A stretch of DNA of 38,234 nucleotides, from contig JACNFK010000016.1 in NCBI GenBank assembly GCA_014384675.1, positions 1 through 38,234 of the forward strand, given 5' to 3'. Position numbers and translations under genes: made by a program. Below are positions 6,129 through 9,020 of the stretch, one piece after another. Origin of the DNA: Candidatus Thiopontia autotrophica (lineage in GTDB: Bacteria; Pseudomonadota; Gammaproteobacteria; GCF-002020875). The notes under the pieces are model-generated. The model saw nothing but the letters and a program-made list of their open reading frames with translations. It was not told the DNA's origin and did no database searches. Positions within the stretch are counted from its first letter, which is position 1. Each line of letters starts with the position of its first letter.

Positions 6129-7415
6129 ATGTTAAAGATTTTTACAACTGTTATGGCCCTTATTCCTGGTGTCGCACTTGCTGAGGGGGCTACACTTGAT
6201 GGTGGCAACACCTCATGGATACTGACATCCACAGCACTGGTACTATTCATGACCCTGCCGGGTCTGGCACTCTTCTATGGCGGCCTGGTTCGCTCCAAGA
6301 ATGTGCTCTCTATTCTTATGCAGTGTTTTGCCATTGCTGGCATCTCCTCCATCCTCTGGTTGGTGGTTGGCTACAGCATCGCCTTCTCTGAGGGCAATGG
6401 TTTTGTTGGCGGGCTCTCTAACATCATGTTTGCGGGCATTCAGGAGGAGACTTTAAGTGGTGATATTCCCGAGTCTCTCTTTGCACTCTTTCAGATGACC
6501 TTCGCAGTCATTACCCCAGCGCTGATTGTTGGTGGTTTTGCAGAGCGTATGAAGTTCTCTGCGGTACTGCTCTTCTCGGCAATCTGGTTGCTGGTTGTCT
6601 ACTCACCGATTACCCATTGGGTATGGGGTGGTGGCTGGCTGGGACAGATGGGACTGCTCGACTTTGCAGGTGGTACTGTGGTCCACATCACGGCTGGTGT
6701 TGCTGCACTGGTAGCGGCTATAGTGCTCGGCCCACGCAAGGGCTTTCCCACCACTGCAATGCCTCCACACAATATGACTATGACAGTAATGGGTGCAGGA
6801 ATGCTCTGGGTTGGATGGTTTGGATTCAACGGCGGAAGTGCGTTGGCGGCAAATGGGGATGCAGCAATGGCGATGCTGGCAACCCATATATCGGCCGCCG
6901 CGGGCGCTATTACCTGGATGTTTTATGAGTGGAAAAAATTTGGTCAGCCAACTGCACTGGGTACGGTAACCGGTATTATTGCTGGTCTCGGCACCATTAC
7001 CCCGGCATCTGGTTTTGTGGGACCGGCTGGTGCGCTGGTGATTGGTATTGTTGCCGGAGCGGTCTGCTTCAATGCGGTACTGGTAATCAAGCGGGTACTG
7101 AAAATTGATGATTCACTTGATGTATTCCCGATTCATGGAGTTGGTGGAATTATTGGCACTCTGATGGCAGGTATTTTTGCCTCCAGTCAGTTGGGGCTGT
7201 TCAGTGGTCAGGGCCTTGCCGAGGGCGTAACCATTGGCGGCCAGGTTTGGGTTCAGTTTATTGGTGTCGTTGCAACGGTTCTCTATACAGCAGTTGCAAC
7301 CTGGGTCATCCTGAAGCTGGTTGGGATGATAACCGGTGGTCTTCGGGTCTCGGCAGATGAAGAGACAGAGGGGCTGGATATTGCCTCTCATGAGGAGCGT
7401 GGTTACGATCTCTGA
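6129..7415 (+). CDS. amtB: Ammonium transporter AmtB
   Basis: This is a 428-residue inner-membrane channel with a cleavable-looking signal peptide (MLKIFTTVMALIPGVALAEG) and eleven expected membrane segments. Family signatures are present: LALFYGGLVRSKN near 46-58, DFAGGTVVH with the first conduction-pore histidine at 186, and FPIHGVGG with the second at 336. Amt trimers pass ammonium or ammonia into the cell and are gated by GlnK, encoded immediately upstream. AAGGAAGC precedes the ATG. The gene ends the operon, and a strong intrinsic terminator begins 24 bases after the stop. All key residues appear intact. Confidence 0.97.
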   Translation: MLKIFTTVMALIPGVALAEGATLDGGNTSWILTSTALVLFMTLPGLALFYGGLVRSKNVLSILMQCFAIAGISSILWLVVGYSIAFSEGNGFVGGLSNIMFAGIQEETLSGDIPESLFALFQMTFAVITPALIVGGFAERMKFSAVLLFSAIWLLVVYSPITHWVWGGGWLGQMGLLDFAGGTVVHITAGVAALVAAIVLGPRKGFPTTAMPPHNMTMTVMGAGMLWVGWFGFNGGSALAANGDAAMAMLATHISAAAGAITWMFYEWKKFGQPTALGTVTGIIAGLGTITPASGFVGPAGALVIGIVAGAVCFNAVLVIKRVLKIDDSLDVFPIHGVGGIIGTLMAGIFASSQLGLFSGQGLAEGVTIGGQVWVQFIGVVATVLYTAVATWVILKLVGMITGGLRVSADEETEGLDIASHEERGYDL

Positions 7416-7439
7416 CCCTCTTTTTCCACTACCAAAACG

Positions 7440-7471
7440 GGGATGGTGTAAAATTGCACCATCCCTTTTTT
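7440..7471 (+). terminator. Intrinsic terminator of glnK-amtB
   Basis: A 9-bp perfect stem (GGGATGGTG at 7440-7448 with CACCATCCC at 7457-7465) closes an 8-base loop and is followed by six T residues (7466-7471). This is a textbook rho-independent terminator. Confidence 0.92.
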
Positions 7472-7492
7472 CTTAATAGGTAATTGCATACG

Positions 7493-7662
7493 TAATAGTC
7501 GAAATCTCTTTCTCTCCTCAGAGGCTGCTTTTCCCCCTGTTTTAAGACCATTTTTCAGCGCCTGTCATAACTCGCTGCGCTCAAACACTGACAGGCTTCA
7601 CTCTGAAAAACAGCCCGAAAACAGGGAGCAGCTAATTCGTCAAAAAGAGATTTCGACTATTA
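7493..7662. mobile_element. 170-bp palindromic element with TA-flanked inverted repeats (MITE-like)
   Basis: The outer ends are perfect inverted repeats of 19 bp including a TA at each edge; the 17-bp core is ATAGTCGAAATCTCTTT. The inside is a long imperfect palindrome. Nested pairs include CCCTGTTTT with AAAACAGGG, TTTTTCAG (7551-7558) with CTGAAAAA (7603-7610), and CCTGTCA (7561-7567) with TGACAGG (7589-7595). There is no reading frame of note. The TA at both edges would fit the target duplication of an IS630/Tc1-mariner-type element, but no transposase is present, so the family is inferred. The element fills most of the amtB-miaB gap and is unrelated in sequence to the MITEs at 252 and 10500. 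Confidence 0.7.
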
Positions 7663-7680
7663 CTAAATAGGCTATATACA
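7652..7680 (+). promoter_or_regulatory. Candidate sigma-70 promoter for miaB
   Basis: TTCGAC (7652-7657) and TATACA (7675-7680) are 17 bases apart. The -35-like hexamer lies inside the right end of the palindromic element. The -10 is only 5 bases from the miaB ATG; an overlapping TATATA (7673-7678) would allow a start close to the ATG. Weak evidence. Confidence 0.3.
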
Positions 7681-7685
7681 GTTTA

Positions 7686-9020
7686 ATGCTCAAAAAAGTT
7701 CTGATCAAAACCTTTGGTTGCCAGATGAATGACTATGACTCTGCCCGTATGGTGGAGTTGTTGGAGAAGTCTCATGGCTATGTACGTACGGAAACCCCGG
7801 AAGATGCTGATCTGCTACTTCTGAATACCTGCTCAGTGCGTGAAAAGGCACAAGAGAAGGTCTTTTCTCAGCTTGGCCAGTGGCGTCCACTTAAAGAGAG
7901 TCGTCCCGATGTTCTGATTGGTGTTGGAGGGTGTGTTGCCAGTCAGGAGGGTGATGCGATTCGCAAGCGAGCTCCCTTTGTGGATCTTGTGTTTGGTCCG
8001 CAGACACTGCACCGCCTACCGGAGATGGTGGATGCAGTTAGAGCAAAAGAGAGGGCGGTGGTTGATGTCTCTTTCCCGGAAATTGAGAAGTTTGATCGTC
8101 TGCCAGAGCCACAGGCCAATGGGGTAACGGCCTATGTGAGCATTATGGAGGGGTGTAGCAAGTACTGTACATTCTGTGTGGTCCCCTACACCCGAGGTGA
8201 GGAGGTGAGCCGTCCATTTGATGATGTTCTGGCGGAGGTGGCGGGACTACTTGCACAGGGGGTGCGGGAGATAACCCTGCTTGGGCAGAATGTAAACGCC
8301 TACCGCGGTGAGATGGAGGATGGCGAGATTGCCGATCTGGCTACTCTTATCCATTACCTGGATGCCATGGAGGGGCTGGGGCGTATTCGCTACACAACAT
8401 CACATCCAATCGAGATGACTGCACCATTAATAGAGGCCTATGCAGAGGTGCCAACGCTGGTAAGTCATCTTCACCTGCCGGTGCAGAGTGGCTCTGACCA
8501 TATTCTTGCGATGATGAAGCGAGGTCACTCTATTGACGAATATCGTGACACCATTCACAAGTTGCGTGAGATCAGGCCTGACCTTGGGCTATCCTCAGAC
8601 TTTATTGTCGGTTTTCCCGGCGAGACCGAGGAGGATTTTATGGCAACCATGGATCTGATTGCAGAGTTGCGTTTTGATAGATCATTCAGCTTTATCTACA
8701 GTCCGCGTCCAGGAACCCCCGCCTCAGATCTGCCTGATGATGTTCCTCGCGAGATTAAACAGAAGAGATTGTCACGCCTCCAGGAGAGACTTAATCAGAT
8801 TGCGATGGATATAAGCCGGGAGATGGTTGGTTCCACCCAGAGGGTATTGGTAGAGGGACCAGCAAGGAGAGGACCCGGTACTCAGGTGGCAGGACGTACC
8901 GAGAACAATCGTGTCGTAAATTTTGATGGCCCACTTACTCTGACAGGAGAGTTTGTTGATGTATTGATAACAGAGGCTCTGCCAAATTCTCTGCGCGGCC
9001 AGATGATGGAGACAAACTAG
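7686..9020 (+). CDS. miaB: tRNA-2-methylthio-N6-isopentenyladenosine synthase MiaB
   Basis: This radical-SAM methylthiotransferase modifies i6A37 to ms2i6A37 in tRNAs reading UNN codons. The 444 residues match the family. The N-terminal MTTase domain carries the auxiliary cluster cysteines C12 (FGCQMN), C49 (NTCSVRE) and C83 (GGCVA). The radical-SAM motif CSKYCTFC has C157, C161 and C164. The SAM barrel follows, with a TRAM RNA-binding domain over the last 65 or so residues. The start is fixed by the family N-terminus ([14 protein letters not shown]), although no Shine-Dalgarno sequence is visible. The TAG stop overlaps the GTG of ybeZ by one base, so miaB heads the miaB-ybeZ-ybeY unit, as in many gammaproteobacteria. 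Confidence 0.98.

Follow-up and report, generated by a model that had tools for sequence, protein, structure and literature searches.

REP-type palindromes are classed by the tags at their stem ends, and the best known among them have been linked to Y1 transposases; IS630/Tc1-mariner MITEs, such as the Correia elements/NEMIS, are intergenic and have paired ends. In the parts of the two sources drawn on here, REPs and REPINs are short intergenic hairpins with GTAG or CGTC tags that occur in 8 phyla; their stems hold alternative complementary residues, many families include close units in opposite orientation, and the doublets are predicted to fold in single-stranded DNA or mRNA (PMC3733652, PMC3116915). 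The CGTC REPs, according to the same portion of one source, apparently lack a dedicated transposase (PMC3733652). ERIC (127 bp, RU-1) and YPAL (167–168 bp, RU-2) of enterobacteria are portrayed, in the section of the source used here, as intergenic, MITE-like elements that form a long stable hairpin with a proposed effect on flanking mRNA, and that section makes no mention of a tip loop (PMC2759123). Cozzuto et al. (2008) catalogued stem-loop families that occur as repeats, among them Hin-1 of Haemophilus influenzae (size 31), which is said to contain DNA uptake repeats, again with no tip loop mentioned in the relevant part (PMC2267715).

The window analysed here, meaning the whole stretch of 38,234 nucleotides from contig JACNFK010000016.1 of Candidatus Thiopontia autotrophica, contains in the gap between amtB and miaB a 172-base nested palindrome with perfect 20-bp outer arms. 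The element that it represents is real, multi-copy, small and apparently mobile, of the REP/ERIC kind, and is defined by its loop. REPs and REPINs, as far as these sources portray them, are the nearest kind and share with it the small intergenic hairpin, the compensating stems and the pairs in opposite orientation. The tag, in contrast to that of REPs, is a 19-nt apical loop and not an unpaired GTAG or CGTC at the stem end, neither of which is enriched here; the unit of about 170–195 bp in the genus compares with 20–40 bp in the REPs so described; no Y1 gene lies beside the tips in the loci examined; and there is no surplus of G.T pairs, which those sources report to be common in GTAG REPs. 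Closest in size are ERIC and YPAL, compared here through their published description (PMC2759123). The features of the locus are:

6129–7415, + strand: amtB, ammonium transporter gene upstream of the palindrome (PF00909)
7439–7466, + strand: small separate hairpin GGGATGGTG...CACCATCCC of 12 pairs with a T run and TAAAAT at 7449–7454 (scan and congener comparison)
7492–7511, + strand: left outer arm GTAATAGTCGAAATCTCTTT, 20 bp, fully complementary to 7644–7663, longer than all simulated inverted repeats
7513–7642, + strand: conserved core, 129 positions of covariance model R1 (137.2 bits, E 1.8e-34; this copy is itself in the model)
7523–7528, + strand: 5' side of the lower stem, GGCTGC (helix 1), partner 7628–7633 (covariance model)
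7535–7558, + strand: 5' side of the middle stem (helix 2), partner 7603–7626, with compensated sequence variation among copies
7560–7567, + strand: 5' side of the tip stem, GCCTGTCA (helix 3; covariance model)
7569–7587, + strand: apical loop AACTCGCTGCGCTCAAACA, conserved and common to hairpins of other phyla (motif scans)
7589–7596, + strand: 3' side of the tip stem, TGACAGGC (helix 3; covariance model)
7603–7626, + strand: 3' side of the middle stem (helix 2), pairing with 7535–7558
7628–7633, + strand: 3' side of the lower stem, GCAGCT (helix 1; covariance model)
7644–7663, + strand: right outer arm, 20 bp, fully complementary to 7492–7511
7686–9020, + strand: miaB, downstream gene (UPF0004, radical SAM and TRAM domains, Pfam)

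In 100 simulated windows that kept the dinucleotide make-up, no perfect inverted repeat (spacer of up to 200 bp) exceeded 15 bp. The outer arms had been described in the initial annotation as perfect over 17 bp and bordered by TA; they are perfect, and their length is 20 bp rather than 17, so that the presumed flanking TA belongs to the arm itself. The RNA hairpin foreseen there is a strong one, positions 7485–7670 folding at -67.6 kcal/mol (z -9.5) with none of 200 shuffles equally good, and the DNA fold of the palindrome region is likewise matched by none of 200 shuffles (z -8.3). The inner arms are indeed diverged and still paired (24 nt, 79%). Across the element family, the outermost part is an arm whose sequence is specific to each copy; inside it lie an asymmetric internal loop (5' CTCCTCAGAG, 3' AATTCGTCG), a 6-bp stem GGCTGC/GCAGCC, a 5' bulge, and a long middle stem of variable sequence that ends in ATTTTTCAG/CTGAAAAA, above which a second asymmetric internal loop leads to a 7–8-bp tip stem closing the loop AACTCGCTNCGCTCAAACA.

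Relatives of the 170-bp unit, anticipated by the initial annotation, are present in several copies in the genome of the window (G000) and in two of the other genomes of the genus (the congeners, G001–G005), namely G004 and G003. The DNA search of 56 genomes, G000 included, gave matches in five: a second copy in G000 (82% identity), the orthologous miaB copy (94%) and further dispersed copies in G004, one match in G003, and only short weak ones in G006 and G039. The covariance model, built from 11 copies and run on 12 genomes, recovered four copies in G000 (C16, which is the copy studied here, C19, C9 and C25), 12 full copies and one tip-only match in G004, two copies in G003 and, in G007, a genome of another family, three matches with E of about 1e-8, one of them partial. 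No copies were found by the model in G001, G002, G005, G006 and G008–G011. These counts exclude six further model matches that are the same copies on the opposite strand; seven of the 18 genus copies (C9 and C25 of G000, C18 of G003 and four of G004) lie outside model building, and the 11 model-building copies fit the model by construction. With several intergenic copies of one hairpin architecture, the palindrome belongs to a small dispersed repeat family; it is not a single-copy sequence, nor is it a regulatory hairpin conserved at one locus across distant genomes, four of the five other congeners having no element upstream of miaB.

None of the 18 genus copies is spanned by a called ORF (ORFs of at least 90 aa). 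ORF calling placed 15 of them between co-directional ORFs and two between convergent ones; the orientation class of C25 in G000 is ambiguous, its left called ORF being antisense, and its counterpart in G004 reads ribF-ileS. The left called ORF of the G004 copy C61 extends into the element and its true start is uncertain. The 15 co-directional copies divide into 11 sense and four antisense, the miaB copy being counted twice (G000 and G004). The neighbours hom-thrC, bioB-bioF and folP-glmM were confirmed by NCBIfam, and the names of the other pairs (gatB, ribF-ileS, nadA-yebC, argG etc.) were read from translations.

The element is absent upstream of miaB in G001, G002, G003 and G005. The amtB-miaB order is kept in G001, with a short gap and no element, and the DNA upstream of miaB in G002, G003 and G005 is, by eye, unlike amtB, so only G001 represents the same gene order without the element. 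The simplest reading is a gain of the miaB copy in the line of descent that G000 and G004 share; the element-less sites could be losses. Four sites of G004 were looked up in G000, where two are without the element (L024, L025) and show by eye no obvious target duplication, one (L023) has a short outer-arm hairpin only, and one (L026) has unrelated sequence. At hom-thrC the flanks of G000 and G004 align and the core stands in opposite orientation; the core is also in opposite orientation at bioB-bioF in G003 and G004, where two independent insertions could be the cause. Orientation is unchanged for the miaB and ribF-ileS copies, which leaves a difference at two of the four shared sites. Outer arms differ between non-orthologous copies, so the exact limits of the element are not fixed by them.

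The candidate end motif TAACTACTCACCC was rejected as a shared transposon end, as it showed no overall excess over the reversed control (23 matches with at most one mismatch in six genomes, below the 76 of the control; nine against seven in G004). Four of the seven matches that were folded look like nothing related. Two stretches, L374 (G004 C24:92919) and L361 (G000 C25:43897), look like collapsed outer-arm hairpins, and L376 (G004 C36:53612) looks like a truncated copy retaining outer-arm sequence.

The initial annotation had read the palindrome as a MITE derived from IS630/Tc1-mariner elements. What survives of this reading is a dispersed, hairpin-forming and apparently mobile palindrome with relatives elsewhere and congener sites without it; the assignment to IS630/Tc1-mariner does not. 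The perfect arms and the TA adjoining the 17-mer suit a MITE with TA target duplication, for which IS630 ends of the form GTAATAGTCGAAATC would be expected, and intergenic position and paired ends are common to both. Against it, the TA falls within the 20-bp arm, non-orthologous copies have differing outer arms, and inspection of the 18 copies by eye showed no common TA border. The search for DDE_3 gave nothing in G000–G003 and a match below the cut-off in G005; the only gene above the cut-off in ten genomes is in G004, and its 30-bp ends TACTAACTTTCACGAAAGTAAAGCTAGATT are unlike the palindrome arms. With neither a TA duplication nor a matching transposase or ends, an IS630/Tc1-mariner MITE is contradicted as far as tested, and we regard it as scarcely credible.

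The loop at the tip extends well beyond the genus. Of 274 genomes taken from the class, 16 contain the exact loop pattern, one of them (G077) 25 times, and none contains the reversed pattern. A scan of genome_contigs returned at least 116 stretches from many phyla, against an estimated 7–8 chance matches at uniform composition. A stem of at least 6 closes the loop in 76 of 109 distinct flank pairs compared with 5.8% when flanks were swapped between loci, and 68 of these 76 pairs have differing 10-mers beside the loop, which shows conservation of the loop but not of the stem sequence. Counted by locus, each locus once and with phyla assigned by hand from record titles, the stem is present in 77 of 110: Bacteroidota 26/31, Bacillota 17/26, Betaproteobacteria 13/17, Gammaproteobacteria 9/15, Desulfobacterota/Delta 6/6, Nitrospirota 2/2, Spirochaetota 1/1, Proteobacteria not further named 1/1, Patescibacteria 1/3, unnamed bacteria 1/4, a Melainabacteria-type contig 0/1, Nitrospinota 0/1 and Aminicenantes 0/2. 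Some loci below the threshold still resemble hairpins with a different tip (e.g. L088) and were left out of the counts. Motif matches near locus ends were dropped from the stem, ORF, phylum, mismatch, partner and tag counts; duplicates with the same flanks were removed for the stem, mismatch, partner and tag counts and kept for ORF overlap; and ORF overlap, mismatches, partners and tags were counted only for hairpins above the stem threshold.

Tip hairpins lie mostly between genes, 9 of 84 being inside an ORF of at least 200 aa compared with 73% of random positions. Among 105 hairpins, a partner motif within 500 bp is inverted in 15 cases and direct in four (11 and three distinct pairs), and at 500–3000 bp inverted in four and direct in four; dimers are thus a minority. 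Of 84 cross-phylum hairpins, the 47 with callable neighbours show no strand preference (-- 15, ++ 14, +- 11, -+ 7).

Among the 80 viral matches, 33 have distinct usable flanks, and 15 of the 33 close a stem of at least 6. In the largest viral ORF cluster (39 contigs), the ORF of at least L227 overlaps the motif; part of the viral matches are therefore coding sequence and not hairpins. In ten viral_contigs (L212, L226, L232, L238, L240, L244, L246, L253, L264 and L279) the loop motif is followed by CTGGCGC with no closing stem; several of these stemless contigs have a common Zot-looking ORF and are perhaps inoviruses; the motif is perhaps an integration site. In related prophage contigs, P2-like by ORF reading (L201, L202, L207, L221, L254 and others), tip hairpins lie close to phage genes, which means that the element can be carried by phages. 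Two Haemophilus loci (L131 7005–7545 and L158 2700–3216) have two inverted tips within a palindrome of about 500 bp that includes further nested hairpins; both palindromes lie near two tandem 292-aa ORFs, of which the one tested (L131) is a LysR-type regulator. In Burkholderiales loci (L178, L098 and others) low-complexity ORFs overlap the elements, which may explain annotated hypothetical proteins.

The stems of the genus copies are held together by compensation. Double compensatory changes occur at 24 of the 35 core pairs among the 11 copies, and the share of paired cells is 93.1% compared with 81.4% after shuffling (0 of 500 as high), a control that ignores relatedness, and with 39–50% when the partner was slid by 1–3 columns, a control that is somewhat flattering as the structure was drawn from the same sequences, the gap being wide nonetheless. 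Compensatory change is ordinarily taken as a mark of selection on RNA, and this weighs against a reading at the DNA level. Under selection of the loop strand as RNA, the stems should hold more G.U wobbles than A.C mismatches. The ratio of G.T to A.C is 15:22 in genome_contigs, 3:10 in the class genomes, 0:1 in the viral set and 19:14 in the genus core; with one doubtful pair removed, the genus core has 19 G.T to 10 A.C (p 0.14) and leans to RNA. From the lack of a clear G.T excess, the lack of orientation preference in the 47 hairpins and the inversions, we take the constraint to be at the DNA level rather than on RNA, which at these small numbers is suggestive only.

Transcription of the element bears on the same question. 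The initial annotation assigned to the right end of the palindrome a -35-like hexamer for miaB, whereas a consensus scan of 7400–7720 found no promoter-like site on either strand; the hairpin at 7439–7466 is the only + strand terminator-like site in this interval. TAAAAT, which stands 231 nt before the miaB start in G000, is also found, by eye, 31–33 nt before it in G002, G003 and G005 (miaB itself has a close match in all six genus genomes searched). TAAAAT at 7449–7454 would be a candidate -10 box, and 7439–7466 the probable promoter region of miaB before insertion, a hairpin that may double as promoter and terminator. Given the stretch of 231 nt compared with 31–33 nt, the transcribed leader of miaB probably includes the element, whose transcription would be a side effect rather than the reason for its presence.

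A cis-acting RNA would make more of this transcription: a hairpin transcribed between operon genes, cut by RNase III or blocking exonucleases, would tune its neighbours, and a protein would read the loop as RNA. Such a role would give the pattern seen in the genus, where 15 of 18 copies have co-directional ORFs on both sides and 11 of these 15 are in sense, and the strong compensation in the stems, the z of -9.5 of the RNA fold, the probable transcription ahead of miaB and the 19 to 10 mismatches of the reduced genus core point the same way. Against this role stand the four of five other congeners that do without the element upstream of miaB, the reversed orientation at two of the four sites in common, and the cross-phylum hairpins, whose loop strand has no G.T excess and whose 47 callable members have no strand preference; moreover, the element and the tip had no match in Rfam (4227 families), where one tRNA and three sub-threshold matches lay elsewhere. 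We consider an RNA role unlikely, while giving it appreciable weight.

The roughly balanced mismatches and the collapsed and inverted derivatives would equally follow if the palindromes were neutral and kept paired by replication template switching alone, the loop being a local sequence bias. Such a process leaves unexplained both an 18-base loop that is common to phyla, with its reversed pattern in 0 of 274 genomes, and the multiplication between loci, and in our view is highly improbable.

Mobilisation as a REP/REPIN-type repeat by a REP-associated tyrosine (Y1) transposase would account for intergenic hairpins, varying complementary stems and inverted neighbours, and Y1_Tnp matches are present in G000, G003 and G004, as in 10 of the 14 genomes searched overall. 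The distribution of genes and elements does not agree with this: G007, G077 (25 exact motif matches) and G232 (88% complete) have the motif and no Y1_Tnp match, and G001 and G005 have Y1_Tnp but no element. The tip hairpin is absent from the 30 Y1_Tnp loci (of 31 matches; 1.7–3.4 kb each, some short at contig ends), where L341 has one loose motif match with two mismatches, whose flanks show no obvious pairing. In the 60 nt on either side of 97 tips, GTAG occurs 5' in three and 3' in 10, and CGTC 5' in 13 and 3' in 19, all below shuffled sequence, and the CGTC of the genus core sits in the 3' internal loop and not at the end of a short stem. Of the three REP/REPIN characters checked, inverted intergenic dimers are present, the tag and a linked RAYT being absent, and RAYT/REP membership was rejected on the tag test and the Y1_Tnp loci. 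As CGTC REPs, too, apparently have no dedicated transposase, the missing Y1 neighbour excludes only the GTAG/RAYT kind. Overall, movement by a Y1 transposase appears improbable.

Other candidate enzymes were sought beside the tip. Among the 25 clusters listed from the 2153 ORFs that lie up to 4 kb from the motif, no mobility-type gene recurs, and the listed clusters, judged by one representative each, resemble sets of phage genes or ORFs of low complexity overlapping the element. No mobility families were found in the eight ORFs between distant inverted pairs (G039 and a Nitrospirales contig). The loop strings returned no paper in the literature searched, which is not proof of their being unpublished; for shorter loop strings, the matches listed are apparently unrelated by title and the start of the abstract.

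On balance we favour, as the somewhat more probable account, that the palindrome upstream of miaB belongs, as one copy, to a dispersed family of small non-autonomous hairpin elements acting at the DNA level, with a putative enzyme and presumed movement of the element. Single-stranded DNA, on the lagging strand or in a cruciform, would fold back; a nuclease, transposase or recombinase would read the loop rather than the stem; and the folded strand would be copied or moved without a long target duplication. With its palindromic arms, the element could then be inverted in place, have one arm corrected by the other, or collapse into a short hairpin. A wider proposal, which we advance tentatively and at rather less than even confidence, is that the tip, in which a 19-nt loop sits on a stem of free sequence above an asymmetric internal loop, serves as the recognition module for mobile DNA hairpins that form an unnamed class throughout bacteria and have an enzyme of their own. 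The miaB palindrome, the inverted pairs of Haemophilus and Variovorax and the hairpins of Bacteroidota and Bacillota would, under that proposal, be members that kept the loop and exchanged the stems.

If this holds, a loop-tagged class in several phyla with no Y1 neighbour would be a further route for hairpin DNA into operons. Such a class may explain spurious ORFs overlapping these repeats, and its single 19-nt loop would offer a simple handle for finding the enzyme.
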